Shown here in pieces: positions 1-62,176 of a stretch of 64,000 bases of DNA (its first letter is position 1; every line of letters starts with the position of its first letter). The position numbers and the translations under genes are program-made. The notes under the pieces were generated by a model. That model saw only the letters and a list, made by a program, of their open reading frames with translations, did not search any database and had not been told where the DNA came from. The stretch is from contig NW_008705561.1 of the NCBI RefSeq assembly GCF_000186865.1, positions 2,917,494 to 2,981,493 on the forward strand. Direction: 5' to 3'. The stretch is from Aureococcus anophagefferens. Taxonomy: Eukaryota; Sar; Pelagophyceae; Pelagomonadales; Pelagomonadaceae.

Positions 1-3000
1 CCGCCGCGCGTCGAGGCGGGCCTGGGCGTCGGCCGGGCGCCGCCCCACGTCGCCGCGGCCCTCGAGGAGACGACGCTGCGCCTGCGCGCGCGCGAGGCCG
101 AGGCCGCCGGCCCCGAGAACGCGCCGTCGCCCCTCGAGGCGCGCTTCGTGCGCGACGACCGGGGGCAGCTCTGGCTCAGCGACGTGTCGCGCGCGCGGGG
201 CGAGGCGCCCCGCGCGCCGACGTCGACGCCGGGCACGCGGTCCGCGAGCCGCGCGGCGTCGCGGTCGAACCCGTCCGCCGCCGCGTCGCGGCCGGGCACG
301 GGCGCGTCCGGCAGCCGCCCGCGGGGAGGCCGGACGCCGCCGGGTTCGTCGGGCCGGCCGCTCCAGCTGCGGCCGCTGAGCGACGGCGGCGGCATGGCCG
401 GCCCGCCGCGGGCCGCCGACTTCGTGGCGCCGCGGAGCGCCGGCGCCGAGCCCATCTTCGGCGGCGGCGCGCCAGACCGGTCGGACGCGATGGCGGCGGC
501 GACGCCCCGGGGCCGCGCCCAACTCGCGCTGCCGACGCCCTGGGAGGCGGAGCTCATGGCGCGGAGGAAGGCCCAGCTCGAGTCCCTCGCGTCCTTCGAC
601 TCCCTCGGCGCGCCGCCCCAGAACGACGGGCTGGGCCTCCCCGGGGACCTCTTCGCGCCGGCCGTCGACGGCGAGCCGTCGGCCGTCGAGACGCTCGACG
701 GCTTCCGCGTGCCGCCGGACGCGGCCGTGGAATCCGGCGCGCCGCCGGGCTCGGCCGCGACCTTCGCCATGGACGCGTTGCGGGAGCGCATCGAGGCCCT
801 CGAGGCCCAGGTCGAGGTGGAACGGCGGAAGGCGTCCGCGGCGGAGGCGTCGCGCGACAAGACCGTCGCCAAGTGCCGCGACCTCGGCCGCGAGCTCGCC
901 AAAGTCAAGGAGGAGGCCGACGACCTCGTCCGCGACCGCGACGCCCAGCTCGAGCTCCTGCGGCTCGAGCTCGACACCGCTCGAAACCAGGCCGCGGTCG
1001 CGCCGCGCCCCCCGAAGCCCGCCGCGGACGAGCCCTCCCAAAAACGCGCGGTCGACGACCTGCTCGAGCAGCTCCAGAGGAAGGAGGCGGCCCTCGTCGA
1101 CGCCGAGGTCAACGCGGCGAAGCAGAAGACGGCCCTCGAGGCGGCCTTCGCGAAGAAGGCCACGCAGGCCGCGTACCAGCAGCACGTCGCGATGAACGGG
1201 TTGCGGGGCGCGGTCTGCGAGGCCCAGGACGAGGCGACGGCCCTCGCGTCCGAGAACGCGGCCCTCAAGGCGAAGCTGACCATCGCCGACGGCGAGGCCG
1301 GCGAGCTCCGGCAGCAGGTCGCGGGGCTGCGCGCGGCGACGGCGTCCGGCGCCGCGGAGTCGTCGACGCTCGGCCAGACGACGCGCGCGGCCATGAGCCT
1401 GGAGTTCGGCGCCGTCAAGCAGGCCGTGGACCCGGAGACGGCGCACCCGTCCGGGTCGCTGTCGGCGTCGTCGCTCCTGAGCCGCGCGCACACGTCCGCG
1501 TCCGAGGCGTCGGCCGCGGCCGCGCAGTCCGAGAACGAAGCCAAGGCCAGGGCAGCAAAAGGGTGATTCAACGTCGCTTCAACGTGAGTTTTGCGCGCGC
1601 GCGCGTTTCGGAAACAGCACCCACGCTTCGAGAGCGCTCCGAGAGATGATCGCTCGTCCAAAAATCAGCGGAAACGAGCGGCAAACGGCCGAGAGAGGAG
1701 CCTTTGAAGTTGGGAATTTCGCACCCTTTCGCTGCCCAGGCCAAGGCGCGCCAGCTCCACAACAAGGTCGTCTTCCTCAAGTCGAGCCTCGAGATGGAGC
1801 TCGAGGCCAAGGTCGCGCTGGAGAAGGACCTCGTCAAGGTGCGCCAGGTGCTCGGCCAGGAGCGCGCGGAGTACGAGCAGCGGCTCGCGGAGGCCGCGCG
1901 CGACCGCGACGAGCCGCGTGGAACTCAAATCTTCAACCCGACTTCAATGTGAGCGTAATCGAACGGTTTGGACCAGACTCTTCAAGAACTCGACGAGAGC
2001 CATCGATCCGTCCAAGAATCAGCCGAATCGACTTCGATTGGACCGAGCTAGAGAGTTCTGAAGTTTGGCGGGGACCCCCCAAACCAGTGGTTGATTTCCA
2101 CGCAGGCGACGAGCTCGTCGCCGCGGCCGAGGGCCGCGCGCGCCTCGCCGTCGACGAGGCCCAGGAGCGGAGCTCCCATTTGGAATCGAAGCTCGTCGCC
2201 GCCCAGTCGGCCTACGGCGACGCGATCCACGACGCGGGCGTCGCGAGGAGGCGCGAGGAGGCCGCGCGCGCGGACGCGGCGCGCGAGGGGTCGCGCGCGG
2301 AGACGCTCCAGCGCGTCGCCGACGAGGAGCGGGCCAAGCTCCTCGAGGCGCGGTCGGCGCTGGGTTTGGGCGACGGGTCCACGGCGGCGCCGTCCGAGGG
2401 GTCCGTCGCGTCGCACGAGTCCGCCGCGACGCTCCGGCGCCTCGAGAACGAGAAGCAGTACCTCTCCGCGCAGCTCAAGTCCGAGGTCCAGTGCCGCGGC
2501 GAGCTCCAGGCGGCCCTCGACGCGGCGAGCGACCAGCTCCGCGAGGCCCAGGCCGCGGGCCACGGCGCCGCGCAGAAGGCGTTGGATAGTTGCCGCGTCG
2601 CGCAGGAGCGCGCGGACGGCGCGGAGCGCGACCTCCGCAACGCGACCGTGGAGAAGGAGGCGACGGAGGCGGCGCTGAAGAAGCAGGTCGACATGCTCAA
2701 GGACGGCTACGTGAAGACGCGCGACGCGCTCCGCGTCGAGCAGCACGAGAAGGGGCGGCTCAAGATCCAGGTCGGCGAGCTCGTCGACGCCGCAAGAAGA
2801 CGCGGCGAGGAGGTCGACGGCCTCAAGGCCGCGCGCCAGGAGGCGTTGGACCGCGCGGCGAAGGACGCGGACGCCGCGCGCGAGGCGCTCCGCGACAACG
2901 ACGACCGCGCGCGCGACCGCGAGCGCGCGCTCGAGGAGGACCTGCGCCGCGCGTTCTCCAGGGTCCAGGAGGTCCGCGCGACGGAGCTCGCGTTGCGGTC

Positions 3001-6118: not shown

Positions 6119-6147
6119 TTGTCTGGTGTGGTCCTGTCTTACGCACC

Positions 6148-7005: not shown

Positions 7006-7122
7006 CGTCGGCTCGATCGGTGCATCAGCGGTGCGCCTCACGAGGAAGCGAGCTGTGGCAGCCAGGAAAGTCGACTAGTGCGGCGTCCTCCGGCGCCAGC
7101 GCGCGCGACTGCAACACTCCCC

Positions 7123-8304: not shown

Positions 8305-8318
8305 TTTTTCTAAATTTG

Positions 8319-10596: not shown

Positions 10597-10604
10597 GAAA
10601 CGTG

Positions 10605-12912: not shown

Positions 12913-15467
12913 ATGGTGCTCTCGCCGGACTATTCGAACCGCGCCCTCGCGGCGGGCCTGCGGCGGGAGCAGAAGATGGCGCGGCGGCCGACGAATCCCA
13001 TGGAGCTGTCCGTGAGCGACGCCGCCTCGCTCGGCCGGATCAGCCACGCGCAGACGCAGGCGCGGCGCCAGCAGAGCAACGTGATCCGGCCGACGTCCTT
13101 GAACCGGAAGACGGAGCGGCGCTACAGTAAGGTGCACCACCACGCGGCGCCGAAGGCGAGCCAGCGGACCATGGTCAACAGCCTGCGCGCGATGCACGAG
13201 GAGAAGAGCGAGCTCGAGCACCAGGAGACCGCGTCCTTCAGCCGGGAGACCCTCAAGCAGATCTCCGTGATCCGCACGCGGCTGCGCCACGACACGTCCC
13301 ACGTCCTCGACCCTTCGGGCCCCTACATGCGCCGCTGGGATCTGGTGACGACGTTCTGCCTCGTCTTCACGGCGATCGTGACGCCCGTGGAGGTGGGCTT
13401 CGTCGTCCAGGCGCGGCCGAACCCGCGCACGCCCCTCTTCTGGATCAACCGGGCCATCGACTGTGTGTTCCTCAAGGACATCGTGCTGAACTTCAACCTG
13501 GCGTACGTCGACGACACGAAGGGCAACATGCTCGTGAAGAGTCGGCGCACGATCGCGAAAAGGTACGTGCGGTCCTGGTTCGCCGTCGACTTCATCTCGA
13601 CGCTGCCCTTCGAGGTCGTGACCATGCTCGCGGGGGACACGGAGCGGCTCAAGGGGCTGAAGATGATCCGCATGATCCGATTGTTGCGGTTGTTGAAGCT
13701 CGCGCGCGTGATCCGCGCGTCGCGCATCGTGAGCCGCTGGGAGAGCTCCTTCTCCGTGTCCTACGCCCACCTGACGGTCATGCGCCTCGGGCTCCTGTTG
13801 ACGACGGTCGCCCACTGGATGGCCTGCCTCTGGGGGCTCAGCGCGACGTCCGCGGTCCGCGACGACCAGTGGACGTGGATCAAGGGGCAGGAAAAGGGTG
13901 ATTCAAGGTCGCTTCAACATGAGTGTTCCGCGCGCGCGCGTTCCGGAAAAAGCATCCATGCTTCGAGACCGTTCCGAGAGATGATCGCTCGTCCAAAAAT
14001 TAGCCGAAACGAGAGGAAAACGACCGAGATAGGAGCCTTTGAAGTTGGAAATTTCGCACTCTTTTCCTGCCCAGGTGGATCAAGCAGCTCGAGCACAGCA
14101 AGCGCGACGCGGACGGCAACAAGCAGTTCCACGGCGCGTCGGTGGCCGACTGCTACTTCGCGTCGCTCTACTTCACGGTCTACACGATCACGTCCGTGGG
14201 CTACGGCGACATCAACCCCGTGAACCGCACGGAGATGGTCGTGAACACCCTTTTTATAGTGACGGGAGCGATCATCTGGGCCTACATCATCGGCAACTTC
14301 GCGTCGCTGCTGTCGACCGTGGACGTCTACGGCGCCCAGTTCCGCCAGTCCATGGACGAGCTCAACGTGATGATGGCGGAGCGCAACTTCCCCGTGTCGC
14401 TGCGGAAGCGGTGCCGCACGTTCTTCCGCCAGTCGCGGAACATGGCGCGCGTCGCCAACTACCGCAAGCTCGAGGGCATGATGTCCTACGCGCTGCGGGG
14501 CGAGGCGGCCGCGGCGAACAACCTGATGTGGCTGAAGCGCGTGTGGTACCTCTCGAGCGCGACGACGTCGTGCGTCGTCGAGATCTCGCAGTGTTTAGGC
14601 CAGATGACCTTCGCGCCGTTGGAGGTCGTCGACATCGCCCACACGCTCTTCGTGCTCCGGCGGGGCATCGCGTCGAAGCGGGGCATCCCCTTCTCCAAGG
14701 GCACGGTCTGGGGCGAGGACTTCGTGCTGAAGCGGCTGGATTTGGCGGACTCGGCGTGCGCGTGCGCGCTGACCTACATCGAGGTGCTGAGCCTCGCCGC
14801 CGCGGACCTGTACCGCATCTTGCGGTATTTCCCCGCGGAGCTCGCGCGCGTGCGCTTCGCCGTCGCCTTCTACACGGTCAAGAGCTGCCTCATCCGCCTC
14901 GGCCGGGAGCACCACCGCCGCGCGATGGTCGAGGCGGGCCTGGACCCGGACGAGGAGGACAGCAAGAAGGTCAGCGCCTTCGAGCACCTCTACATGCGCA
15001 AGGGCCACAAGATCGCCGCGCACACGTCGTCCATGGCCGAGGTCCGCCCGTCCGTGATCCTGAATCCCGTCAAGGTCGCGCCCGGCCGCCAGTCGGACGC
15101 GCCGCCGCCCGCGTCGAACTTCGAGATCGCCAAGCTCGCCCAGACCGTCGAGAGCCTCGACGCCAAGCTCGACGCGCTCGTGGCCCGGCTCGACGGAGCC
15201 GCGCCCGCGGCGCCCGCGGCCGGCGGCGGCGGCGGCGGCGACGCGGGCCCCGCCGTCGGGGCCCAGGACCTCGACCGCCACGCGCAGGAGACCTTCGGCT
15301 TCGGCGCCTTCACCAACCAGGCGGCCCTCGGCGAGGGGCGCGTCGTCCGGCGATTCACGGGCCGGGGATCCATGGTCGCGAGCCGGCCCGCGATCAAGGC
15401 CATCGAGGAGACCAAGGCCGCGGAGAAGCGCCGGCGCACGCGGCGGTCCTCCTTCCTGCCCTCGTAA
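12913..15467 (+). CDS. Voltage-gated K+ channel of the EAG/KCNH-HCN type with degenerate CNBD
   Basis: 784 aa from exons 12913..13874 and 14075..15467. The six-segment core starts near residue 142 (RWDLVTTFCLVFTAIVTPVE). S4 is at 251-270 (MIRMIRLLRLLKLARVIRAS) with regularly spaced Arg/Lys. S5 is near 290-310 and the selectivity filter SVGYGD is at 361-366, indicating K+ selectivity. After S6 and a C-linker there is a cyclic-nucleotide-binding-like fold (FAPLEVVDIAHTLF, then WGEDFVL near the phosphate-binding cassette), which may not bind ligand. The C-terminal tail is coiled-coil plus a poly-Gly run. The introner lies between S5 and the pore helix; splicing restores DDQWTWIKQLEHS. Located at plasma or internal membrane. 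Confidence 0.85.
13883..14074 (+). mobile_element. Introner element C, family 1
   Basis: A 192-bp element between copies of GTGGATCA at 13875-13882 and 14075-14082. Inverted ends are GGGCAGGAAAAGGGTG and the complement of CTCTTTTCCTGCCC. The intron 13875..14074 is 200 nt. Here the duplication begins with GT, giving a canonical GT-AG intron. Confidence 0.92.
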
Positions 15468-16994: not shown

Positions 16995-18316
16995 ATGGTC
17001 ATCGGCGAGTTCAAGGGCGAGTTCAAGTCGATGACGGACTACCACAACCGGTTCTGGCAGCGCAAGGACCGGGGCAAGGAGTTCGTCGGCGGCCTGCGGC
17101 GCACGATCAACCTGCCGCTGGCCGCCGACGACGACCCGGAGAACGAGGCCCACGACAAGAAGTACAAGCCGTCCGACGCGCTGCGCGAGCGCTTCCACGA
17201 GGCGAAGATCGACGCCGACGAGCGCCTCGACAACCAGTGCCGCGTGCGCTTCACGAAGCTGCGGGAGTGCCTCACCGAGGAGGCGCACTCTCATCCCAAC
17301 GGCACGGAGGTGTCCGACGACCTCAAGAACATGCGCAACGAGGGCCGCGTCGACGAGGCGGTCGAGTCGCGCATACGGAGCTACTTCGAGGTCGTCGACG
17401 ACGGCGACACGGGCTACATCGGCGCGAAGCTCCTCTTCGAGGAGCTCGAACGGTTCGGGTGCACGACGCCCGAGCACGACTTCGAGAAGCTCTTCATGCA
17501 CGAGGTCCGGAAGAAGCGGCTGTCCGTCGACGACTTCATCATCGTCGTCGCGCGGAACCCGGCCCTCGGCGACGCGCTCCAGGAGGCGCGGCTCCACGAG
17601 CGCGCGGCGGGCTACGTCGACGACGCGAAGGAGCAGGACGCTGGGCCGAAATCAAATCTTCAACCCGACTTCAATGTGAGCTTATGCAAGAGTTCTGACG
17701 CGAGTCTTTCTGTGCCTCGAGAGCTCGACGAGAGCGATCGATTCGTCCAAAAATCAGCCGAATCGACTTCGATTTGACCGAGCTAGAGAGGTTTAAGTTT
17801 GGCTGGAATAACCCAACCAGTGGTTGATTTCGGCACAGGCAGGACGCGTGCTCGCTGTGCGTGCAGCGCCACGCGCGCGTCGACGTCGAGCTCGGCAAGA
17901 AGCGCGCCCGGGCGTGGTGGAACGAGACGCTCGACGACGCCCTCGGCGAGTACGCCTGCGAGGAGGACGCCGAGGCCGTCGCGGACCGCGAGCGCCACTT
18001 CATCTCCGAGTCGACGGACGAGCGCCTCAAGGCCGCGATCAAGAAGAAGGTCGGCCTCGAGCCCGGGGCGAACCGGTTCCACGCCCTCGTGGACGAGATG
18101 AACCTCACCCACGTCACCAAGAAGCCCAAGGACATCTTCGACTGGAAGGAGGAGGTCAAGTTCATGTTCTGCGGCGTCGACGTCGACGAGGTCGCCGCGA
18201 TGACCGTGGAGGACTACCAGCGCATGGTCGACTTCCGGACCCTCGACGCCTACCGCGACCCGTCGAAGGAGTGGAAGAAGGTCAACGCGCCGGAGCAGAT
18301 GCAGGTCAACTTTTAA
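16995..18316 (+). CDS. Unrecognised protein with degenerate EF-hand, two exons
   Basis: 371 aa from exons 16995..17632 and 17839..18316. The ATG is in the strong context GCCACCATGG. The N-terminus is MVIGEFKGEFKSMTDYHNRF. Around residue 130, YFEVVDDGDTGYIGAKLLFE resembles an EF-hand loop but lacks the acidic residue at position 12. A CSLC pair occurs just after the intron. No enzyme motif is seen. The protein is acidic and basic in blocks and lacks a signal peptide, so it is probably cytosolic. It shares a short bidirectional promoter region with the CH-YbaK gene. Confidence 0.75.
17641..17838 (+). mobile_element. Introner element D, family 2
   Basis: A 198-bp element between copies of GCAGGACG at 17633-17640 and 17839-17846. 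Ends CTGGGCCGAAATCAA and the complement of CTGTGCCGAAATCAA form a 15-bp inverted repeat with one mismatch. The intron 17633..17838 is 206 nt, GC-AG. Splicing restores AKEQDACSLCV. Confidence 0.92.
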
Positions 18317-24212: not shown

Positions 24213-25802
24213 ATGGCGGACGACTGGCCCCTGGCGATCGCCCACGGTCGCGTGGCCTACTGCGCGTTCCGCGCCACGTCGGTGACCGTCGCCGCGGTCG
24301 ACGGGGACGAGGTTCGCGTCGTCGCGCTCGGCGCGGTGCCCGAGGTGCCCTGCGCGTCCGTCGAGGCCTGCGACGTCGCCTGGGTCGGGCGGCGGCTCGT
24401 CGTCTGCGCGAGCGACGGCACCGTGCGGTGCTTCGACGGCGACGCCTGCAACCCGACGGCCTGCGTCCGCGTCGCGGCGTCCGCCGGGCGCCTGTCGGCC
24501 GCGCCGGGCGCGTCCGAGGCCGTCTTCCGCGCGCGGCCGGGGCTGGCGACGTTCCTGGCCTTCGACGGCGGCGGCGCGCCGCGCGTGAGCCACCACAAGG
24601 TCGCGGCGCCGGAGCCGGCGGCCCTCGCGGCGTCGCGCGGCGGCAAAGCTTTAGGAGTCGGCTCTCGGCCGACGGTCGCCGAGTACGCGCTGGCGGACCC
24701 GCCGCCGTCGGGCCTGCTGCGCGCCGCCGCCGGCGCCCTCCTCGGCTGGCTCGCGCCGGGCGCGCGGGCGCCCCGGGGCGACGGGAACGCGCGCGACGGC
24801 TTCGCGGACCGGCGGCCCTACGAGGACCGCGAGGGCCCGCGTGCGAATCAAATCTTCAACCCGACTTCAATGTGCGCGTATTCGAATGATTTAACACGAG
24901 CACTTCCGCTGTGCTTCGAGAATTCGATGAGAGCACTAGATTCATCCAAAAATCAGCCGAATCGACTTTGATTTGACCGAGCTCGAGAATTTCAAAGTTT
25001 GGTCGGGACGTCCCAGCTCACCGGTTGATTCGCACACAGGCGAGGGCGCGCGGCGCGAGGGCGAGCGCCACGGCCGCGCGGCGCGGTCGCGCGTCTTCTT
25101 CGACGACGCGGGCCGCGAGGCCCACGGCGTCGCCGTGTCGCCGCGCGGCGACCTCGCGGCCGTGAGCGACAACCTCGGCCGCGTGCTCCTCGTCGACGTC
25201 GCGGCGGGGCGACTCGTGCGGCTCTTCAAGGGCGCGCGCCGCGCCCAGGTCGCCTGGGTCGAGGTCGACGACGGCGACGGCGCGAAAACGCCGGGCCTCT
25301 ACCTCGCGATTTTAGCGCCGCAGCGGGCCCTCGCGCGCGTCTGGCGGTGCCGCTTCGGCCCGTGCGTCGCGGCGTTCCGCGTCCCGCCGGAGCTGACGCG
25401 CCTCGTCGAGGCGCGGGGCGCGGACGGCCGCGCCGTCGCCTACGTCGCCGGCGGGCCGGCGGACCTCGTCCTCGAGCCGCTCGCCGTGGACGCGGCGCGG
25501 TGCGCGGCGGTGGCCGCCGCCGCGCGGCGCGACCTCGCGACGGCGGGCGCCGAGGCGCGCGCGAAGCGCGCGCTCGCGGCCGCGGACAAACGCGGCGACG
25601 CGTCGGACGCCGCGGCGCAGCTCGGCCGCCTCGACGGCGACGACGGCGCTTTGGCGCGCGTCGTGGACGACGCGTGCCGGTCCTGCGGCTCGCCGGCGGT
25701 CGTCGCGTCGCTCCTGGCGCACCTCGCGCGGCGCGGCGACGCCCTGGGCGCCAAGGCCGCGGCGCTCGCGGCGACGGAGCGCGTGCGCGCGTCCCTCGCG
25801 GG
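24213..25802 (+). CDS. RAB3GAP2-like (Rab3GAP regulatory subunit) N-terminal part, truncated by gap
   Basis: Exon 1 is 24213..24828 and exon 2 25040..25802, running into N. The protein has a degenerate beta-propeller (MADDWPLAIAHGRVAYCAF, then VVCASDGTVRCFDG). After the introner it reads FFDDAGREAHGVAVSPRGDL, then AAVSDNLGRVLLVDVAAGRL, VRLFKGARRAQVAWVEV and LAILAPQRALARVWRCRFG. The order D-D-x-R, S-P-x-G-D-L-A-A-V-x-D-N-x-G-R-V, V-R-x-x-K-G-x-R-x-A-Q and R-x-x-x-x-V-W matches the RAB3GAP2 N-terminal family, the regulatory half of the Rab3/Rab18 GAP/GEF complex. The C-terminus is missing. Confidence 0.6.
24837..25039 (+). mobile_element. Introner element E, family 2
   Basis: A 203-bp element between copies of GCGAGGGC at 24829-24836 and 25040-25047. 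Ends CCGCGTGCGAATCAA and the complement of CTGTGTGCGAATCAA form the inverted repeat. The intron 24829..25039 is 211 nt, GC-AG. Splicing restores YEDREGARREGE. Confidence 0.92.
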
Positions 25803-26057
25803 NNNNNNNNNNNNNNNNNNNNNNNNNNNNNNNNNNNNNNNNNNNNNNNNNNNNNNNNNNNNNNNNNNNNNNNNNNNNNNNNNNNNNNNNNNNNNNNNNN
25901 NNNNNNNNNNNNNNNNNNNNNNNNNNNNNNNNNNNNNNNNNNNNNNNNNNNNNNNNNNNNNNNNNNNNNNNNNNNNNNNNNNNNNNNNNNNNNNNNNNNN
26001 NNNNNNNNNNNNNNNNNNNNNNNNNNNNNNNNNNNNNNNNNNNNNNNNNNNNNNNNN
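25803..26057. other. Assembly gap (255 N)
   Basis: A run of 255 N. The reading frame before it (exon 2 of the RAB3GAP2-like gene) and after it are not in register at this length, so its length is an estimate, or it hides an intron or another gene boundary. Confidence 0.99.
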
Positions 26058-32214: not shown

Positions 32215-35200
32215 ATGTACAAAGCCGTGGTGTTCGTGCTTGTTCTCGCCGCGCTCGTCGCGTTCGTCGCCTTCGAGTCGCACGTGGCGGCGATCTCGAA
32301 ACCACGCGCCGCCGGCGACGCCGGCCCCTGGCTCGCGGCGCGCGAGGCGTCGGACGCCGTCGCGGCGTCCGAGGGCGGCGACGCGCCGCCGGCGGCGGTC
32401 GCCGCGTCGTCCGCGGCGCTCGACGACGACGAGGACGACCGGCCGCCCCTCGTCGCCGGCGCGCCGCCGCCCGAGGGCCCGCCGTGCGACGCGGCGCGCG
32501 TCCGCTACTGGGCCGGCGGCCTCCCGGGCGACGCGGCGCTCGTCGCGTCGGGCCGCGTGCCGCCGGCGACGGCGCCCGAAGCACCGCGCTACCTCACCTT
32601 CGTGCCGGACCTCGGCGGCTGGAACAACGTGCGCCTCGGGCTCGAGAACGCGCTGGTCATCGCGCGGTCGTCGGGCCGGATTCTGGTCCTGCCGCCGCCC
32701 CAGACCTACTACCTCCTCGACGCGAGCGAGCGCCTGGGCCTCGAGGACCTGCTGCCCGCGCTCGTCGGCAGCCCGGACCGCGCGGCCGTCATCGCGGCCG
32801 CGGCCTTCGTCGAGGACGCGGTGCCGCGGCTGCGGCGCGAGGGCCGCTACGCGCGGCCCGCGGCGCGCGGCGGCGGTGCGCCCGGCCCGCCGCCGGCGAA
32901 CGCGACGGCCTTTGTGCGCGGCTGCCACCCGACGCGCAAGGCGCCGGACAGCTGCTTCGGCTTCTACGATTGGCTCGAGGACGCGTTCGGCGACGGGGCA
33001 CGAAAAGGGCGCGAAATTCCCAACTTCAAAGGCTCCTATCTCGGCCGGTTCCCACTCGTTTCGGCTGATTTTTCGACGAGCGATCATCCCTCGGAGAGTT
33101 CTCGAAGCGTGGATGTTTTCCTTTGAAACGCGCGCGCGCGGAACGCTCACGTTGAAGCGACGTTGAATCACCCGCCCAGGTTCGGGAACGGCTTCGCGCC
33201 GAACGTCGGCCGCGAGTGCCTCGCCTTCGGCGATCCGCCGGAGGCGCGCCTCGCCGCGGCCTGCGGGCCGCGGACGGCCGTCGACGGCACCCCGCGGGCG
33301 CGCATCGACGGCGACGCGCTCTTCGGCGGCCCGGACGCCGTGTTGCACGTCCGGTCGTCGGGCGCCGCGACGCACCACGCGGCGGCCGTGCGCGCGAACC
33401 GCGCGGCGGCGCTGCGCGGCGAGGCCGTCAAGCCCATCGAGCAGAACGCCCTGGGCCGCCTCCTCGCGCCGCCCTGCGCCTACGTCGTCCACGGCGACGC
33501 GGCGACGGCGAACTTCTACAAGCGTCTCGTCCGCGACTTGGTCCGGCCCTCGGAGCGCGCGACGTGCGCGGCGCTGCGCGTCGTCCGCTGGCTGCGGGGC
33601 GTGCGAAAGCGCGGGGGCACGTTCTCGTCGGTCCACGTGCGGTCGACGGACTTCCAGTACGCCGAGGGCCGCGCGGACTGGGCCGTCGTGTCCCGCGCGC
33701 TGGCGCCGCGCGAGCCCGTCTTCGTGGCCACGGACGACGACACCGGCGCCGTCGCCGCGCCGCTGGAGCGCGCGGGCCACGCCGTCTTCACGCTGGCGCC
33801 GCTCGTGCGGGCGGCCCTCGGCGGGACGCGGCCGAAGCGCGCGACGCACTGGCCGGACAAGAAGGTCCTCGACGCGCTCAAAGCCGTCAAGCGCGCGGAG
33901 GTCGGCGTCGTCGACGCGCTGATCGCGGCCGAGGGGCGCACCTTCACGGGGGCCTGGTTCTCGACGTTCACGGGCTTCATCCACCGCGTCCGGGGCTACC
34001 GGGGCTACGCGGACAACAGCTCCTTCTTTAGCGCCGCGGGCCGCTGGGCCGCGTTCCAGGGCTTTGAGGCGCCGCGGACGCCGCTCTACATGCGCGAGTG
34101 GCCCGCGGCCTGGCGGAATATCGACTCCGACGGCGACGCGGCGCCCTATCCCGGCGAGCGCGTCTTCGACGAAATCGACCCGGCGGAGGGCTACCCGACG
34201 GACGCCGTGCCGGAGGGGTTGTTGGCGCCGAAGCTCGAGGCCTGCGTTTTACCACAATCCATGCGCTACTGGCGTGCGCCCGGGTCGGGCGCCGCGGATG
34301 CGCGCCTGCTCCGGGACCCGGAGGCCGTGCCGCGCCTCGCCGGCGACCGCTTCTTGACGTTCGTGCCGGACCTCGGCGGCTGGAACAACGTGCGCCTCTC
34401 CTTCGAGAACGTGCTCGTGCTGGCGCGGTCCACGGGGCGCACGCTCGTGCTGCCGCCGCCCCAGACCTACTACCTGCTGACGAACTGCAAGCGGAACTGC
34501 GTCTTCGGCTTCGACGACTTCCTCCCGGCGCTCCTCGACGTCGACGATTTGGTGATCACCGCGGCGGCCTTCTTCAAAGACGCGCTCCCGGCGCTCCACG
34601 CCGCGGGGCGGCTCCGAAGGCCCGCGCGGCGCGACGACGGCGGGTCGCCCGTCGCCTGGCCGCCCGAGGACGCGCGGGTCGTCGACTACGCCGACGGCTG
34701 CACGCCGACGCATCTGGCGCCCGACTCGTGCTTCCCGGCCTACTTCTGGCTCGAGGACGCCTTCGGCCTGCCGGACCACATCCCGGACGTGGGCCAGCAG
34801 TGCGTCGTCTTCGGGGAGGCAAGGGCGCGGCGCCTCCGCGGCGACGGCTTCGTCGACGAAAGGCTCGACGACTTCTGCGCCGTCCGCACGTCCATCGCGC
34901 CCGGCGTCGAGCGGAGCCGCGTCGACGGCGACGCCCTCTGGGGCGACGCCGAGTCCGCCGTGCTCCACGTGCGGAGCTCCGGCGTCGCGACGCACGAGCA
35001 CGACAAGTGGCGCGACAAGAAGGTCGGCCAGGGGGGACCGCAATTGGAGCCCGCGCGCATGGGAAGATTGCTGGCCCCCTGGTACGCCTACGTCGTCCAC
35101 GCGGACCCGGCCGTGGCCAACTTCTACAAGCGCCTCGTGCGGGACGTCGTGCGCCTCGACGAGCCCCGCGTGACCTGCGCGGCCGCGGGCGTCGTCGCGT

Positions 35201-35871
35201 GGCTGAGGTCGGCCTACGGCGGCGCGTTCGCGTCCGCGCACGCGCGGCGCAACGAGTTCCAGTTCAAGGAGACGAACGCCCAGCTCGGGGCCGTGGGTTT
35301 GCGGGACGTGCTCCTGCGCGTCGCGCGGCCCGGCCAGGCGCTTTTTTTGGCGACGGACGAGAAGAACGCGTCGTTCTTCGACCCCGTGCGCGCGGCCGGG
35401 CGGCCCGTGGTGCTCCTGAGCGAGCTCCTGGCCTACGGGTCGAGCCGGCAAGACGGCGGCCGGCGGCCCGACGGCGCGCCCTGGCCGCCGCGGGACCTCG
35501 CGGAGCGGCTGCTGGAGCTGAACGGCAACGAGCTCGGCTTCGTCGACGTGCTCGTCGCCTCGCAGGGCGCGACGTTCACGGGCTCCTGGTTCTCGACCTT
35601 CACGTCCTTCATCCACCGCCTCCGGGGCTACGGCGGCTTCCGGGACGCCGACTCCTACTTCACGGCGCCGGACCGGTGGGCCGCGTTCCAGGGCTTCGAG
35701 AGGATCCGCTCGCCGCTCTACATGCGCGAGTGGCCGATGGCCTGGCGCGGCATCGACGGCGACGAGGAGGCGGCGCCCCTCCCCGGGGAGCGCGTCTTCG
35801 AGCCCGGCGTCGCCAAGGACGGCTACCCGACGGACCACCTCCCGCCGGCCGCGCTCTTGGCCGCCACTTGA
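32215..35871 (+). CDS. Tandem O-fucosyltransferase-like protein, type II membrane, two exons
   Basis: 1153 aa from exons 32215..32984 and 33180..35871. An N-terminal anchor (AVVFVLVLAALVAFVAFES) places it in the Golgi or ER lumen. Two homologous modules follow, the first about residues 125-620 and the second about 645-1150. Each has TFVPDLGGWNNVRL near its start, then LVLPPPQTYYLL, a CxPT/S-type segment with APDSCF, VHVRSTDFQ or AHARRNEFQ, FVATDDDT or FLATDEKN, and FTG(A/S)WFSTFTxFIHR. This layout matches the GDP-fucose protein O-fucosyltransferase superfamily (GG-x-x-N at the start, a His-Arg-x-Asp-like motif and a C-terminal T-x-S/F region). Acceptor unknown. The introner interrupts only the first module. 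Confidence 0.7.
32993..33179 (-). mobile_element. Introner element F, family 1, reverse
   Basis: A 187-bp element in reverse orientation to the host gene, between GTTCGGCG (32985-32992) and GTTCGGGA (33180-33187), an 8-bp duplication with two differences. The right terminus has lost a few bases (GATTCAAC ends in GGGC rather than the full repeat). The intron 32985..33179 is 195 nt, GT-AG. Splicing restores WLEDAFGNGFAPNVG. Confidence 0.85.
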
Positions 35872-35951
35872 GGTAGATGTTTGAGCAAGTTTGCTGGCTT
35901 CTTGCCGTTTTTTGCTGGCGTCGTCACCCTGGTGAAGAGCCCCGTGCTTCG

Positions 35952-37727
35952 ATGGAAGCCCCCATTGTGGAAGACCCGTCGGCGGCCGCGGCCACGTCGC
36001 GGCGGCCGCGCGCCGCGCTCGCCGCCGCGTGCGTGTGCACGCTGCTCGTTTTCTGCGCGCGCATCGACGGGCTGCCCCGGGCGGCCCTCGCCAGCGGCAC
36101 CAACGCGCTCACCTTCGACTGCGAGTCGCCCGCGGCCGAGCTCGTCTGCGCCGCGGCGCTCTCCGGCGCCGAGCCGGGCGCGACCTACGAGCTGACCTTC
36201 GTCTACCGGCGCAAAGGCGCGCCGGCCGCGCTGCGGAGCCGCCCACTGAACGCGACGGCGGACGCGGCCGGGTCGCTCTCCGGCCACCTCTTCCGGCTCC
36301 GCGCGCGCGCCGCCTACCGCGTCGAGGCGACGGCGCTGCGCGGCGCGCGCGACATCCGCGCGTCGTCCACGCTCGTCGCGCCGGCGTTCCGCGGCGGCGC
36401 GACGTTCGACGGCACCGACCGCTTCGCGACGAAAGTCGACGGCAACGCGTCGGCCCTCGAGCTCGTGCTCATGGGCGCGACCGTCGGGGACGTGGCGTCC
36501 GACGGCTGGCGCGGCCTCGTCGCGGTGGACGCCGAGGGGTACGTGGTCTGGGGCCTCGCGAAGAACGCGTTGTGCGCGTTCGCGAAGCTCGAGGACCACC
36601 GCTTCGTCGTCAGCTCCGTGCCCGCGATGGCGGGCGCGCAGCCCGAGTGCGCGTCGCAGAGCGTCTTTCGGGACGGGCGGTCCCTCACTTCCCGCCTCGA
36701 GGTCTTCGCGCCGTCGGGCGGCCTCGCCGGCGGCGTCTTCGCCGAGGCGTGCGTCGGCGAGCCGAAGAATTATAGAAGCCTGTCCCACCTCGTCGCGCCG
36801 TCCGTCGCCCTGAAGGAGGAGTCGATACTCACGGTCGAGAGCCGCGTCGAGCTCTACGAGTCCGGCGTCGTCGTCCAGAAGGCCGCGACGAGGGCCGCGC
36901 GCGTCGACCGCGTCGTCCGCTGGGTCCCCGGCAATGACGCCGTCGCGACGGTCGTCGACCTCGCGTCGACCTTCCCCGCGGGCGCGACGCGCGACTACGA
37001 GCCGGCGACGATCTTCGAGGAGAACGACCTCACCTGCGACGGCGGCGAGCTCAGCCGCCACGTGCCCTACTGGATGCACGCGGACGGCGTCTACGAGACC
37101 GCGGCCGGCGGCGTGCTCGTGTCCGTCCGCAACTTCAACGCCGTCGCGCTCTTCGACGCAAACGGCGGGCTCGCGTGGACCCTCGCGGCGCCCCACGGCG
37201 GCTCGGGCGGCGTCGCGTCGAACTTCACGTTCGCCGACGATGCCGAGGCCTTCTACGCGCCGCACGCGCCCGTGCTCTCGGCGGACGGAAACCGCCTCTA
37301 CGCCGTCGACGACGGCACGGCGCGGCCGGGCTGCGCGAAGCAACGGGACCACGTCTTCGTCCAGTGCTGGTCGCGCGCGGTCGCCTACGACCTCGACTTC
37401 GACTCGATGACGGCGGCGCTCGCCTGGGAGGTGGAGCTGCCCGAGGGCTTCGGCGAGGACGGTTTCGCGGCGGCGGACGCCTACAACCCCGACGGCGGCC
37501 GCGTCGTGCCGCTGGCGACGCCGGGCTACGTGCTCGTCGCCTTCGGCAACCTCCACGACAACGCGCGCGACGCGGCCTTCGGCCAGGACTCCGTCGTGCT
37601 CGTCTACGACGAGGTCGCGGCGCGCGTCGTCTTCGAGCTCCGGGCGCCGCGGAGCCACTGGCTCGCGGGCGACTTCACCTTCGAGGCCGTCGGCAGCATC
37701 GCGGGGGAGGCGAGGCACCGCGTGTAA
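35952..37727 (+). CDS. Membrane-anchored arylsulfotransferase-like protein
   Basis: 591 aa from ATG 35952; ATG 35877 is an alternative in-frame start. A type II anchor follows (ALAAACVCTLLVFCARI). A beta-propeller of the arylsulfate sulfotransferase (ASST) type is suggested by WMHADGVYETAAGGVLVSVR, then NFNAVALFDANGGLAWTL, and YWMHADG as the probable catalytic-His region. Other blades include LVAVDAEGYVVWGLAKNA and LVYDEVAARVVFELRAP. ASSTs move sulfate between phenolic compounds without PAPS. The 80-bp gap after the O-fucosyltransferase-like gene suggests a compact same-strand pair. Confidence 0.6.
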   Translation: MEAPIVEDPSAAAATSRRPRAALAAACVCTLLVFCARIDGLPRAALASGTNALTFDCESPAAELVCAAALSGAEPGATYELTFVYRRKGAPAALRSRPLNATADAAGSLSGHLFRLRARAAYRVEATALRGARDIRASSTLVAPAFRGGATFDGTDRFATKVDGNASALELVLMGATVGDVASDGWRGLVAVDAEGYVVWGLAKNALCAFAKLEDHRFVVSSVPAMAGAQPECASQSVFRDGRSLTSRLEVFAPSGGLAGGVFAEACVGEPKNYRSLSHLVAPSVALKEESILTVESRVELYESGVVVQKAATRAARVDRVVRWVPGNDAVATVVDLASTFPAGATRDYEPATIFEENDLTCDGGELSRHVPYWMHADGVYETAAGGVLVSVRNFNAVALFDANGGLAWTLAAPHGGSGGVASNFTFADDAEAFYAPHAPVLSADGNRLYAVDDGTARPGCAKQRDHVFVQCWSRAVAYDLDFDSMTAALAWEVELPEGFGEDGFAAADAYNPDGGRVVPLATPGYVLVAFGNLHDNARDAAFGQDSVVLVYDEVAARVVFELRAPRSHWLAGDFTFEAVGSIAGEARHRV

Positions 37728-37741
37728 CGTTTTTTGCCGGG

Positions 37742-40638: not shown

Positions 40639-43007
40639 ATGGCGCTCGAGGCCGTCTGCGGCGAGCTCTGCTGCCCGATGACCGGCGAGCTCTTCGTCGA
40701 GCCCGTCATCTTCCTCGACGACGGCGCGACCTACGAGAAGAGCGCCGTCGAGCAGTGGCTCGCGTCGCTGCCGTGCCTCGGCCTCGGCGGCGCGGACGTC
40801 GCCGCGCGGCTCGTCGCGGTCAAATGCGTGCGCCGCGCCGTCGAGCGCGCCGTCGCCCGCGGCGCGTCGCTGCCGCCGGGCGCCCGCGGCGCCTGGTGCG
40901 TCGCCGCCGTCGCCGCGGCCGCGCGGACCTTCGCGCGCGGCGCCGAGCCCGCGGAGCTCGACCGCGTCGTCGCCATCGTCCGGAACGTCGGCGGCGACGA
41001 GCGCCTCTCCTACGGCACGGCCTGCGACTTGTTCGGCGACGCCCTGCCGACGCACCGGCGCGTGCGCCTCGCGGCGGCGCTCGCGCTCCAGGACCCGCGG
41101 TCGACGCGAGCGGCGCTCGCGCGCGGCGTCCGCCGGTTCCAGGCGGCCGCGCGCGCGGCGGCGTCGCGCCGGCGCCGCCCGCGCACGCCGCGGCGGACGA
41201 GGCGCGCGGCGCCGCCGGCGTTCCCCGCGCGGCTCGCGGCCGAGGCGGCGCCGGGGACGGCGGACGGGACGCCGCCGCGGCCCGCGGAGACGCCCGTCCG
41301 CGCGCCGGAGCCCGTAGACGAGACGCCGCGGCGCGCGCGGCGGTCCGTGTCCTGGGCCGACAGCGACACGTGCTCGTCGCCCTGCTCGTCGCCGGAGCTC
41401 ACGCCCCACCGGCCGCGGTCCGTGTCCTGGGCCGACTCGCCCCCGGCCCACTCGCCGGAGACGACGCCCGTCCGCGACCGGAGGCCCGCGAAGCCCGCGC
41501 CGCGCGACGAGCCCGCGGCGCGCGAGGAGCCCGCGCCGCGCGACGAGCCGGCGCACGACGAGCCGCCGGAAGAGCCGTCGCCGCCGCGCGAGGAGCCGTC
41601 GCCGCCGCGCGAGGAGCCGTCGCCGCCGCGCGACGAGCCGTCGCCGCCGCGCGACGAGCCGTCGCCGCCGCGCGAGGAGCCGCCGCCGCCGCGCGACGAG
41701 CCGCGGCCGCCTCCGCCGGCGCCGCGCGCGGTCCCGCCGGCGCGGCGCCCGCCGTCGGAGGCGCCGCCGGCGCGGCGCCCGCCGCCCGAGGCGCCGCCGG
41801 CGCGCGAAGACCGCGAGCGCGCGGCCCCGCGGCGCCGGCCGCGGCCGAGGGCCGCGGCGCCGGCCGCGGCGCTCGACGTCAGCATCGACGTGCCCGCCGA
41901 GGAAGCCTACGCGGCCGCGGCGGCGCCCGCGGCCGCGGCGCCGTCGCCCCGGGGCGCGCCGTCGCCGCGGGGCGCCGCGTCGCCGCGGACGAGCCTCCGC
42001 GACGCCGTGCGCCTCGCGCGGCGCCGCGCGGCGGACGGTGAGCGCGCCGCGGCGACGGTGCAGCGCGCGTGGCGCCGCGGCCGCGTCCCCGAGGCCTTCG
42101 AGACGCTCTCGGAGCGGACGGAGGCCGCGTCCGACGCGGAGCGGACCGTCGCCGACGCGCCGGCGCCGCGGCCCGCGTCGTCGCCGCGCGTGCCGTCGCC
42201 GGCCGTCGCGGCGGCCGAGGCGAAGCGCGCCGCGGGCCGCGCGCGCCGCGCGTCGCGGACGGCGCGGCCCGCGCAGCCGCCGCCGCCGCCGCCGAAGCGC
42301 AAGGCGCGGACGGCGGCGCCGCAGAGCGTGTGGATCCCGCCGGAGACGCCGCTCCCGGCCAAGTCCGCGGCGGCGCCGGCCCCGGAGGCGGCGAAGGCGC
42401 GCCCGGTCGGCCCGATCGCCGCGAGCCCGGCCATGGACGAGTCCATCGACCTCGCGGGNNNNNNNNNNNNNNNNNNNNNNNNNNNNNNNNNNNNNNNNNN
42501 NNNNNNNNCTCCGCGTCGCCGCGGAACGCCGCCGCCCGCGCCGACGTGTCGCCCCCCGGGACGGCGCCGCCGCGCGCGCGGGGCCCGGCGCGCCGCGCGC
42601 GGTCCGCGTCGCCCGCGGGCCCCCCGGCGCCAGAGGCGGAGAACGCGAGGCCCCCTCGCGCGGAGACCGCGAAGCCCGCGGAGCCCCCGGCGCCCGCGGC
42701 GACGACGCCGGCGCGCAACGCGGGCGCCAAGCTCGCCGGCGGCGAGCGGCTGCCCATGGCCGCGCCGCGGCGGCCGCTCCGCTGCGTCACCGAGCCCGGC
42801 GAGCCCGCGGCGGCCGCGGCGCCGCGCGGCGCGCGGCGCAAGATCAGCCCGCGGTGCATCTCCGACTTCGACGAGTCGCGCACGCCGCCGCCGCCGCCGC
42901 CGAAGCCCGGGAGCCCGTCGACGCGCCTCTGCGACCTGCCCGCGCTCTCGATGCCCCACCAGGTCGAGTCGACGCCCTTCCTGGACCGCCTCGCCCACGC
43001 GTCTTAA
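40639..43007 (+). CDS. U-box protein with Pro/Arg-rich repeats and IQ motif, spans gap
   Basis: Start ATG 40639 (CGCCATGG). U-box at about residues 8-70: ELCCPMTGELFVEPVIFLDD, then GATYEKSAVEQWLASLPCL. U-boxes recruit E2 enzymes, so this is probably an E3 ubiquitin ligase. Then a helical region, a basic region, repeated SWADS motifs, a run of PSPPREE/DE repeats, and an IQ-like motif (AAATVQRAWRRGR) that could bind calmodulin. A 50-N gap interrupts it at 42459-42508; frames on either side do not match at that length. The C-terminus ends TPFLDRLAHAS, TAA at 43005-43007. Confidence 0.7.
41572..41700 (+). repeat. 21-bp coding tandem repeat, about six copies
   Basis: Unit GAGCCGTCGCCGCCGCGCGA plus one base, encoding EPSPPRE/D. 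Six consecutive copies within the U-box gene with few substitutions. Confidence 0.9.
42459..42508. other. Assembly gap (50 N)
   Basis: Fifty N inside the U-box gene. The frames before and after differ, so the true missing length is not 50 or an intron is included. Confidence 0.99.
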
Positions 43008-44096: not shown

Positions 44097-45547
44097 ATGG
44101 TGACGACGCGGTCGAAGAACGGCGTCGCCGGCGGCGCGAGCCCCATCTCGCCGAACTCGAGCCCGCTGCAGATCGCGGCGTCGAAGCGGTCCTACCCGCC
44201 GGTGCCCAAGACCTGCGTCGTCACGGGCGGCACGGGCTTCGTCGGCCAGCGCCTCGTGGAGATGCTCGTCGAGCGCGGCGCGGCGAAGGTCATCTCGCTG
44301 GACATCGTGCCGGCCCCGAAGGACGCGTGGCGCCACCCGAACATCGAGTGGCGCGTCTGCGACATCACGGATGAGGCCAAGGTCGCCGCCGCGCTCGAGG
44401 GCGCCGACTGCGTCTGGCACAACGCCGCCGCCGTCGGGCCCTTCCACCCGAAGCCGCTCTACACGCGCGTGACAGGGCAGGACAAGAGAGCGAAATTCCC
44501 AACTTCAAAGGCTCCTTTCTAGGCCGTTTTCCACTCGTTTCGGCTGATTTTTGGACGAGCGATCATCTCTCGGAACGGTCTCGAAGCGTGGATGTGTTTT
44601 CCGTAACGCGCGCGCGCGGAACACTCACGTTGAAGCGACGTTGAATCACCCTTGTCCTGCCCAGGCGCGTGAACTACGAGGGCACGCTCAACGTGCTCCG
44701 CGCGTGCAAGAAGCACGGCGTGCCCAAGCTCGTCTTCTCGTCGTCGCCGTCGACGCGCTTCACGGGCGCCGACGTCGACGGGCTGCGCGAGGACGAGATG
44801 CCGTCCCTGCCCCTGCCCAGCTACCTCCAGGAGTACGCGGGCACGAAGGCCGCCGCGGAGCTCGAGGTCTCGAAGGCGTGCTGCGACGACCTGCTGACGG
44901 TGTCCGTGGCGCCGCACCAGGTCTACGGCCCCCGCGACAACCTCTTCCTGCCGAATTTGCTGGAGAACGCGGGCAACGGCCGCCTCCGCGTCTTCGGCCC
45001 GGGCTACAACCGCATCTGCTTCACGCACGTCGACAACTACTGCCACGGCCTCATCATCGCCGAGCGCGCGCTCGTGCCCAAGTCGCCGGCGCTGGGCAAC
45101 TTCTACATCTGCACGGACGGCACGACGCACCCCGGCGGCGAGCAGTACCTCCTCTTCTGGAAGGAGCTCGACCGCGCGGTCGTCGGCATGGGCTTCTCGT
45201 CGCTCTGGGCCAAGTTCCACTACCCGACCTGGTTCCTCACGCCCATCGCCGCCGTCTGCGAGGTCATCGGCTGGATCTTGGGCACGACGCTCAAGCTCAA
45301 CCTCTTCAACGTCCGCGTGCTGGTCATGCACCGCTGGTTCGACATCGCGAACGCGGAGCGCGACCTCAAGTTCAAGCCCATCATCGCCTACGAGGAGGGC
45401 TGGACGGAGACCATCGCCTGGTTCCGGGAGCACTGGCTCCCGACCTACGCCAAGTCCGCGTCCCTCTTCGGCATCGCGAAGCAGTCCCAGGCGAAGATCG
45501 ACATCCAGGAGGCGTCCCGCCAGGCGGACCTGAAGAAGACGAAGTGA
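44097..45547 (+). CDS. 3-beta-hydroxysteroid/sterol-4-carboxylate dehydrogenase-type SDR, two exons
   Basis: 416 aa from exons 44097..44464 and 44665..45547; ATG 43935 is an alternative upstream start. Rossmann motif TCVVTGGTGFVGQRLVEMLV, then VWHNAAAVGPFH, the active-site Y-x-x-x-K in LQEYAGTKAAAELEV, and VYGPRDNLFLPNLL. This is the extended SDR family of 3-beta-HSD/NSDHL (ERG26), which decarboxylates 4-carboxysterols in sterol synthesis. A hydrophobic stretch (FLTPIAAVCEVIGWILGTTL) would anchor it to the ER. Splicing out the introner restores LYTRVNYEGTLNVL. Confidence 0.85.
44473..44664 (-). mobile_element. Introner element G, family 1, reverse
   Basis: A 192-bp element in reverse orientation to the host gene, between copies of GCGCGTGA at 44465-44472 and 44665-44672. 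Ends GGGCAGGACAAG and CTTGTCCTGCCC are perfect inverted repeats of 12 bp. The intron 44465..44664 is 200 nt with GC-AG ends. A GT inside the duplication (44469) would give a canonical donor but breaks the frame. Confidence 0.92.
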
Positions 45548-54710: not shown

Positions 54711-54801
54711 GAGCTAGCCGACCTGCGCAGGCCCCTGTAAGCCGCTCTCAGAGACCGGACAGGGTGCTGAGTGGAGGGCACCGTTTTTGTTGAGTTTCAA
54801 C

Positions 54802-57201: not shown

Positions 57202-57268
57202 AATTCTCTTTACTGACGGAGTCCTCCTCTGCTTGAAGGGCAACCTGCACACAGTGTGGCGAATCGAT

Positions 57269-57729
57269 ATGGAGCTGAACCGGAAGGAGCGGCGCCGACT
57301 GGCCGCCGAGGCCGCCAAGGCCGCAGCGGCTGAGGAGGCTGCAGCGGAGGCCAAAGCCGCCGCCGACGCCAAAGCCGCGGAAGCGAAGGCCGCGGCCGAC
57401 GCCAAAGCCGAGGCCACAGCGGCCGCCAAGGCCGCCAAGGCCGCAGCGCCAGCGCCCGCAGCGCCAGCGCCCGAGGCGCCGGCGCCCGAGGCGCGCGCGC
57501 TCGCCGCCGCGAGCAAGCCCGCGATCGCCGGGCCGGAGTGCACCTCGAGAATCGTGATGGAGCTGAACCGGAAGGAGCGGCGGAAATTGGCCGCCGAGGC
57601 CGCCAAGGCCGCAGCGGCGGAGGAGGCCGCAGCGGTGGAGGAGGCCGCCGAGGCCGCCAAGGCCGCAGCGCCGGCGCCCGAGGCGCGCACTGCCGCGAGC
57701 AAGCCCGCGATCGCCGGGCCGGAGTGCAC
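57269..57729 (+). repeat. Duplicated N-terminal coding segment of the FAD oxidoreductase
   Basis: Copy 1 is about 57269-57543 and copy 2 about 57557-57729. Both start ATGGAGCTGAACCGGAAGGA and end GGGCCGGAGTGCAC. Copy 2 is shorter because it has fewer AAKA/ADAKA units. Each carries an in-frame ATG. Confidence 0.85.
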
Positions 57730-59050: not shown

Positions 59051-59220
59051 ACGGAGCCCTGGGGTGACATAACGGTGCATAGGGCTTTTGACGAAATTTT
59101 TGTGGCGATTTCTGAGATTCGGCGACGCTCGTCGTGCGAGGGCGGGTCGCCCGTGCGGAGAGCGCGCCCAATCGAGCCGCGCGACCTGCGGCGGTCAGGG
59201 CACAAAATATACAACACCCC

Positions 59221-60789: not shown

Positions 60790-60820
60790 CGTAACACATA
60801 AACACCGACTTTAGAAGACA

Positions 60821-62176
60821 TCAGAGCCGCGCGAGGCCCGGCGCGGCGTGCTTCCGGGTGTCCGGTACGCAGCGGTAGGCGACGGTCGTGTTCGAGAGGA
60901 TCTTGTGGGGATCCTCCCACGCGTAGGCCACCGTCGCGTTCGTGCCGTTGGGCCCCGCGACGGCGAAGGACAGCGCCCAGTCCGCGGCGTCGAAGTAGTC
61001 CTTCGACTGCGACGGCACCGCGGAGTTGCCCTTGTCGAAGCGGAAGAGGACGTAGCGGCCGTTGAGGCGCACGTCGCGCACGGTCACCGTCGCGCTGAGC
61101 TCCAGCGCCGCGACGTCGCCGACGTCCGTGTCCGGCTCGTAGTCCTTGTCCAGCGCGAGGGACACGGGCAGCGACGGGCCCGCGGCGTTGCCCGAGATCG
61201 CCACGCCGAAGTCGTAGGCGACGTCGAGGCAGGGGTAGGCCTCGCCGCGCTTGTCGTCGGCTTTGGAGCAGTTGCCCCGCAGGTAGAGGGTGTCCACGAG
61301 CGTGTCGAAGCGGCGGTAGTAGCCGAGGTTCGCGGACCCGTCGGGCGCCTTGCCCGAGCCTGGGCAGGACAAGAGAGATTAAACGTCGCTTCAACGTGAG
61401 TGTTCCGCGCGCGCGCGTCACGAGAAAAAACATCCACGCTTCGAGACCGTTCCGAGAGATGATCGCTCGTCCAAAAATCAGCCGAAACGAGTGGAAAACG
61501 GCCGAGAAAGGAGCCTTTGAAGTTGGGAATTTCGCTCTCTTGTCCTGCCCTTGCCCGAGCCGTGCGCGAGCACGTCGTCGTCGAAGACCTCCGACGCGTC
61601 GGCCAGGGGGTACTGGGAATAGATACCGAAAACGGGCTGGACGACGTCGTAGGTCGCGTTCGCGAGGCCGTAGGCGTCGTGCTCGCCGCCCGCGCGCATC
61701 GGGAACCACAGCACGGGCGCGCCGGCGGCGAGGCGCCGCTTGAGCCAGAGGAGGTAGGACCGCCACTGGGGGTAGGTAGGACCATCATACACCTCGTATT
61801 GAAACCTTAACTTGTCGAGCGCGCCCGCGACGTTCGTGTGCAGGATCTCGTAGCCGAGTTTGGGGCTCCCGTGGCCGCCGCCGTCGGCCGCGGCCCGCCG
61901 CGCGACGCCCTGGGACACGTAGACGCCGTAGGAGAGCGCGATGGCCTGGATCGCCGACGCGCCGCCGAAGACGCCCTCGGCGTCGACCCACTGGCGCCGC
62001 GGCGACACGGGCGCGACGCGCGCGTGGGCGTAGCCCGCGGGCGGCGTGCAGGTGCCCGGGGCGGCGCAGGCGCCGTTGCGGTCGGGCCGCCGCCGCGACG
62101 GGTCGTCCGGCGGCGGCCGCGCGTCCTCGGCGAGCGCGCAGGCGCAAAGGACCCCCCACGCGAGGCGCGAAGCCAT
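60821..62176 (-). CDS. Secreted protein, C39-like cysteine-peptidase fold without the usual Cys, two exons
   Basis: 384 aa. Exon 1 is complement 61561..62176 and exon 2 complement 60821..61359. A signal peptide starts at MASRLAWGVLCACALAEDAR; ATG 62203 is an upstream alternative. The region EGVFGGASAIQAIALSYGVY resembles the active-site segment of C39-like peptidases, but Cys is replaced. Then come DGPTYPQWRSYLLWLKRRLA, PVLWFPMRAGGEHDAYG and YDVVQPVFGIYSQYPLADAS, which look like the His region. The C-terminal half is beta-rich with N-glycosylation sequons. Splicing restores LAHGSGKAPDGSANLG. Family assignment is tentative. Confidence 0.5.
61360..61552 (+). mobile_element. Introner element H, family 1, reverse to the host gene
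   Basis: A 193-bp element on + sense, inside a minus-strand gene, between copies of GCCCGAGC at 61352-61359 and 61553-61560. Inverted ends GGGCAGGACAAGAGAG at 61362-61377 and its complement at 61535-61550 are perfect over 16 bp. The intron complement 61360..61560 is 201 nt, GC-AG. Confidence 0.92.

Follow-up and report, generated by a model that had tools for sequence, protein, structure and literature searches.

How can a gene stay readable after a repeated element has entered its coding sequence, and what kind of element would allow this? We addressed the question in a window of 64,000 nucleotides from Aureococcus anophagefferens (G000:C1:2917494-2981493, 72% G+C, from a 49-Mb genome in 86 contigs), where eight elements interrupt seven genes. 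The first-pass annotation of this window had likened them to the introners of Aureococcus. Judged from sequence, they are very probably just that: non-autonomous DNA transposons with terminal inverted repeats (TIRs) that act as spliceosomal introns. The features that carry this reading can be seen directly in the DNA, namely the 8-bp target duplications flanking the elements (TSDs), the TIRs, the arrangement of GY at the start of the TSD and CAG at the end of the element, frame continuity (eight of eight in the window, and 62 of 63 loci elsewhere) and genome-wide repetition; the TSD-derived donor, the acceptor within the element and the Aureococcus host agree with the earlier likening.

In the mechanism we propose, a non-autonomous element of about 190–205 bp, presumably moved by a transposase acting in trans, would insert with an 8-bp duplication of its target. 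The upstream TSD copy would then give the donor dinucleotide, GC or GT, and the downstream end of the element the acceptor …CAG; splicing of the RNA at these sites would excise one TSD copy together with the element and return the original reading frame. Insertions that cannot be spliced would be lost to purifying selection, rather than being avoided through target preference. If so, the window offers a clean example of bulk intron birth, in which a transposon brings the acceptor, duplicated host bases serve as donor and the protein is left unchanged.

Eight elements in seven genes

Element boundaries in the window were set by searching for 8-bp direct repeats around inverted ends. All eight elements were found where the first-pass annotation had placed them, 187–203 bp long and named here by their first position, with 1548 and 1914 sharing one gene; the exon junctions that it gave (1539/1740 and so on) are those obtained by removing one TSD and the element. 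Seven TSDs are perfect, and the eighth, for which two differences had also been reported, is that of 32993, whose copies (GTTCGGCG and GTTCGGGA) differ at two bases and whose ends are the least alike of the eight. In gene sense, every TSD begins GC or GT and every element terminates in CAG, and we therefore take each intron to be one TSD copy plus the element (Table 1).

The elements belong to two families, A (1548, 13883, 32993, 44473 and 61360; 85–96% identical) and B (1914, 17641 and 24837; 77–80%), which are only 50–59% identical to each other. The high identity attributed earlier to the whole set is thus right for family A, and not for family B or for comparisons between the families. A donor-like motif, TTCAA(C/T)GTG, and the string CGTCCAA(A/G)AATCAGC are common to most window copies of both families. 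Nothing in the window matched Rfam at gathering thresholds. A detector of paired TSDs and TIRs (60 bp to 6 kb) recovered four of the eight elements (1548, 13883, 44473 and 61360), missing at its cut-off 32993 and the three family-B elements, and returned 2, 0 and 1 structures in three triplet-shuffled windows. Because it also returned many unrelated G+C-rich chance pairs in the real window, the detector alone proves little; it is the sequence shared among the elements that is decisive.

When TSD and element are removed, an open reading frame (ORF) of 404 to 1542 codons spans the junction in the chosen frame at all eight sites. This range treats the two elements of the first gene separately; when both are taken out together, with 3 kb of flanking sequence to either side, the ORF is 1568 codons long. 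Retaining the element introduces one to four in-frame stops in seven of the eight cases, whereas 13883 introduces none, yet the frame there closes after 116 codons instead of 464. At site 1540 another frame is longer than the predicted one (1971 versus 583 codons). Since the longest ORF may pick the wrong frame in a G+C-rich genome, we scored codon usage instead, excluding the tested gene from training; this leave-one-out score placed the best upstream and downstream frames in the predicted frame at all eight sites, with wide margins. The earlier statement that the frame is restored in all eight is upheld by both tests.

The host proteins were also compared with their relatives. All seven aligned relatives of the protein encoded across 44465 pass the junction without extra residues. 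Its best named match is from A. anophagefferens (88% over the whole query, 95% in the multi-relative alignment), the differences lying mostly in a few segments that resemble another gene model; an environmental protein is 99% identical, and near matches come from Aureoumbra lagunensis, Pelagophyceae sp. CCMP2097 and Chrysophaeum taylorii. On these matches the host is judged to be A. anophagefferens itself or something very close to it. An environmental relative of the 17633 protein, 98% identical, matches exactly across the junction. The gene interrupted at 32985 is a tandem duplication, and its second copy aligns gap-free at the junction without an element, so that at the compared site only the first repeat copy carries an introner. 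Pfam domains cross the junctions at 13875 and 44465; in the 32985 protein the O-FucT match covers only 46 residues and lies off the junction. Of five proteins scanned, two contained no Pfam domain. The O-fucosyltransferase-like domain duplicated in tandem within this one gene occupies 32384-36200, with a repeat pair at 33898-34169 and 35530-35801.

Table 1. Predicted introns of the window and the empty paralogous site (window coordinates; the second TSD copy stays in the exon, as written out for intron 1)
Feature	Position	Strand	Composition
Predicted intron 1	1540..1739	+	TSD GCCAAGGC + family-A element 1548-1739; second TSD copy 1740-1747 kept in exon
Predicted intron 2, same gene as intron 1	1906..2105	+	TSD GCGACGAG + family-B element 1914-2105
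Predicted intron 3, ion-channel gene (PF00520/PF07885)	13875..14074	+	TSD GTGGATCA + family-A element 13883-14074
Predicted intron 4	17633..17838	+	TSD GCAGGACG + family-B element 17641-17838
Predicted intron 5	24829..25039	+	TSD GCGAGGGC + family-B element 24837-25039
Predicted intron 6, tandemly duplicated O-fucosyltransferase-like gene	32985..33179	+	TSD GTTCGGCG, exon copy GTTCGGGA; reversed family-A element 32993-33179
Predicted intron 7, 3-beta-HSD-like gene	44465..44664	+	TSD GCGCGTGA + reversed family-A element 44473-44664
Predicted intron 8	61360..61560	-	TSD (gene sense) GCTCGGGC at 61553-61560 + family-A element 61360-61552
Paralogous empty site, second repeat of the 32985 gene	34759..34766	+	GCCTTCGG, without element

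Family-A copies across the genome

In a genome search for the inverted ends, suggested in the first-pass annotation, the 16-base core of the family-A TIR was counted 1457 times on one strand and 1478 times on the other (2,935 in total, or about 1,470 family-A copies), compared with 1 and 0 for a reversed control. We then examined a sample blind to the outermost dinucleotides, consisting of the window, of loci picked by the exact TIR core at one end (ten of 10 kb and 55 short ones, all on contig C1) and of ten further 10-kb stretches placed at fixed coordinates on contigs other than C1; the sampled copies come mostly from C1. BLAST hits over all loci numbered 115, of which 97 passed the TSD/TIR rule, and 85 of these (80 of family A and five of family B) belong to the dinucleotide-blind part. 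The ten fixed stretches hold eight resolved elements, or 13 BLAST hits when fragments and unresolved copies are included. The window, with eight per 64 kb, is typical of the other stretches sampled (8 to 13 per 100 kb), and its earlier description as very dense is not sustained.

Family-A copies are on average 91% identical, with a nearest-neighbour median of 96%. Seventy-nine of the 80 copies in the blind sample have CT at one terminus, which read on the other strand is an acceptor …AG, and a different dinucleotide at the opposite terminus (CA 58, CG 12, CC 5, GC 2, AG 1 and AA 1); no copy in this sample has CT at both ends, and none has CA at both. When the copies are oriented by the CT end, the TSD begins GY in 78 of 79, against the 20% expected from background, and a perfect 8-bp TSD is present in 67. 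In a whole-genome count of end patterns among elements of 184–190 bp (gap 152–158), we found 28 CA…AG, no CA…TG and no CT…AG; this pattern misses the common 192-bp length, and the main claim rests on the locus sample. The second TIR base at the gene-upstream end is other than A in 20 of the 79 copies, and the end dinucleotide is independent of the interior tree (20 changes versus 20.2 when shuffled), unlike most interior sites.

The coding context of these copies is equally regular. Among 75 one-orientation elements outside the window, all of family A, 67 had flanks long enough for a frame test, here a codon-usage score trained on five window genes. Both flanks were clearly coding on the predicted strand at 63 of the 67, and the frame was continuous after removal of TSD and element at 62 of those 63; over all testable loci it was continuous in 65 of 67, where about one third would be expected by chance. 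By these measures, nearly all sampled copies look like working introns in coding sequence.

Some observations weigh against interpreting the elements as introners. The 18 BLAST hits that fail the TSD/TIR rule (15 of them in the dinucleotide-blind sample) include 32993 in the window itself and two long family-A copies of 93–96% identity, L014:8835-9026, whose best repeat match is five of eight bases, and L027:7705-7890. Among the family-A copies, L012:24 has a repeat that does not begin GY and L085 lacks a CT end; the strongly coding locus L025 is frame-discordant. Finally, two of three relatives of the 17633 protein, the more distant ones, are one residue shorter at the junction.

Might the insertions instead be ordinary miniature inverted-repeat transposable elements (MITEs) that broke their genes and are not spliced, the genes being dead or tolerant of the insert? 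TIRs and TSDs are plain MITE features. Without splicing, however, the TSDs should start at random. Instead, 78 of the 79 family-A copies keep the GY/CAG polarity, and all 44 resolved copies of family B allow at least one spliceable orientation; furthermore, the flanks remain coding, and seven of the eight window elements carry in-frame stops. We regard unspliced MITEs as a highly improbable explanation.

Nor do we think it at all likely that the true donor is a GTGAG motif inside the element, about 36 bases in, which would leave part of the introner in the mRNA. The motif is well kept, TTCAACGTGAGT varying little in family A (0–10% per base) and TTCAATGTGAG being present in two of the three window copies of family B, the Fig. 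2F legend of Gozashti 2022 (PMC9860276) describes an element that carries both splice sites, and one Aureococcus sp. family is reported to add 12 bp. At 1548, however, this donor would retain 44 additional bases and disrupt the frame; the motif is antisense in 50 of 79 family-A copies, and it is removal of the whole TSD and element that leaves the frame continuous in 62 of 63 loci.

Copying of introns through RNA by reverse splicing, as proposed for fungal introners, is scarcely credible in place of DNA transposition, for although almost all sampled copies fall in coding sequence and their ends point the same way with respect to the gene, they have exact 8-bp TSDs and TIRs, and their interiors occur in both orientations (50 opposite to the gene and 29 the same), unlike a sense-strand RNA copy. 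Interior orientation clusters on the interior tree (6 changes versus 23.6 when shuffled), which indicates that the end bearing the acceptor is passed down within subfamilies rather than set anew whenever an element inserts.

Family B, donor sites and a possible mobilizer

The introners of family B differ in their ends. The set comprises 44 resolved copies among 47 BLAST hits in the examined loci, mostly best matches to one interior, and most have CT at both ends, that is, CAG both ways; at least one orientation is spliceable in all 44 and both are in 11, the register of two copies (L009 and L026) being doubtful. From these ends we predict that family A splices one way, whereas most of family B could be spliced both ways.

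A relative of 0.5 kb, found at C1:618576-619054 (479 bp, in L017) and C32:77547-78048 (502 bp, in L089), has the family-A TIR but ends CAGGG…CCCTG, with the acceptor AG on neither side. The C32 copy has a perfect 8-bp TSD (CGCGCGAC), and the C1 copy none that is recognizable. The simplest reading is that the introners derived from a MITE with ends of the CAGGG…CCCTG type through a one-base change, from …CCCTG to …CCCAG. We also considered, and rejected, the idea that family A needs its A/T mismatch at the second terminal base to hold the acceptor AG outside a TIR stem, because family B has T there at both ends in 33 of 44 copies and because A-to-T changes are rare in the family-A interior (2 of 114 changes at A sites).

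Donors read from the DNA geometry are mostly GC: 49 GC and 29 GT among the 79 family-A copies, and 21 GC and 12 GT among the 33 single-orientation copies of family B. In the background GC is three times as common as GT, so that GT is still favoured relative to chance. C or G usually precedes the donor, and there is no strong consensus over TSD positions 3–8. According to Gozashti 2022 (PMC9860276), GC donors make up 0–50% per introner family, a range that the Aureococcus share deduced here from DNA geometry exceeds. PMC7789003 gives Aureococcus introners direct repeats, TIRs and canonical splice motifs, whereas GC predominates among the donors in our sample. If GC donors do prevail, most of these Aureococcus introns would escape gene finders built around GT.

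What might move the elements? The search gave no support for an autonomous element with the exact TIR core, and linked no autonomous partner to the introners: only two of the 2,935 TIR ends continue unlike either family-A flank at both tested positions, and the matched strings resemble mutated family-A copies. The filter passes a quarter or somewhat more of unrelated interiors, so a few such elements could hide from it. Among transposase domains, the hAT dimerization domain (PF05699; four candidates) and the KDZ (Zisupton-like) transposase (PF18758) had no match in the genome, the control genomes being silent for both, and the MULE transposase of Mutator elements (PF10551) had none in a six-frame search in which 3 of 14 controls were positive and which a domain split by an intron could escape. 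The P-type transposase RNase H domain (PF21787) gave one match, at C25:178372-178818 (E = 1.4e-9), with three in-frame TAG stops. P elements generate 8-bp duplications, and on that ground we count this fragment as a lead, a possible remnant of the mobilizer. Viral spread was entertained and set aside: a single viral contig contains a 19-base core word, which we ascribe to chance because the ORF containing it is phage-like and similarity to the elements stops after about 20 bases.

Known introners and paired variation in the inverted repeats

Elements of this kind are already known from this host, and ours show no difference of kind from Aureococcus introners. Transposon introners were reportedly described in A. 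anophagefferens by Huff, Zilberman and Roy in 2016; the TSD of A. anophagefferens introners is 8 bp long. By description, the likeness extends to the host, a length around 200 bp, TIRs and direct repeats, and to the split origin of the splice sites, of which the element contains one and the duplicated target supplies the second. Aureococcus introners have a characteristic length of ~210 bp (PMC9481584). Introner family 4 of Aureococcus sp. TARA_AOS_82_MAG_00129 (PMC9860276) shares the genus and the 8-bp TSD, but in its example the element contains both splice sites and lengthens the mRNA by 12 bp, whereas the window elements restore the frame exactly. Symbiodinium introners (PMC9860276, Fig. 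2B) carry the acceptor, co-opt the donor from the TSD and have TIRs, as here, with a TSD of 4 bp instead of 8 bp. The introner elements of Amoebophrya (PMC7789003) likewise combine inverted repeats that pair the intron ends with direct repeats at the borders; these repeats, however, are of 3–5 nt and the borders mostly non-canonical, in contrast to the predicted GY…AG. For the nonconventional introns of euglenids (PMC4770533), an RNA structure has been proposed to join the intron ends, but their borders are variable and their removal mechanism is unknown, whereas the borders here are of spliceosomal type.

Within the family-A TIR, positions 9 and 11 are both polymorphic and vary together with a partner base some 170–175 nt away: the two ends match in 71 of 79 copies at position 9 (normalized mutual information 0.52; Fisher P = 3e-13) and in 67 of 79 at position 11 (0.43; P = 6e-11). 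The two positions vary independently of each other (0.00), show weak coupling to the interior (at most 0.24) and follow the interior tree only in part (left end, 21 changes versus 25.5 when shuffled, and 17 versus 26.8). Family B covaries likewise at TIR positions 6 and 7, with 40 and 39 matches in 44 copies where about 26 are expected. It is conceivable, though in our estimation rather unlikely, that the TIRs are doubly used, an RNA stem joining the intron ends so that a donor without consensus beyond GY could be spliced. In predicted folds of three introns, the TIRs are paired and the AG lies at the base of the stem; the z-scores of these folds are modest, at -1.4 to -1.9. Two observations speak against such a stem: some pairs of interior columns are coupled equally or more strongly (up to 0.89, in adjacent columns), and 35 of 79 copies have a mismatch at TIR position 15, which means that pairing is not preserved throughout the repeat. 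Conversion of one TIR onto the other, or homogenization, in source copies would also give this covariation, and a stem, homogenization or both would fit.

The consulted portions of PMC9860276, PMC9481584, PMC12768974, PMC7789003 and PMC4770533 make no mention of TIR covariation, and we do not claim that it is unpublished. If it does reflect an RNA stem, it would link transposon introners with structure-defined introns, a proposition that is directly testable. Beyond the introner reading itself, the results most worth pursuing are, in our view, the predominance of GC donors, the existence of a one-way and a two-way family, the cousin that is not an intron and the paired TIR variation.

Two runs of N lie within the window, at 25803-26057 and 42459-42508.

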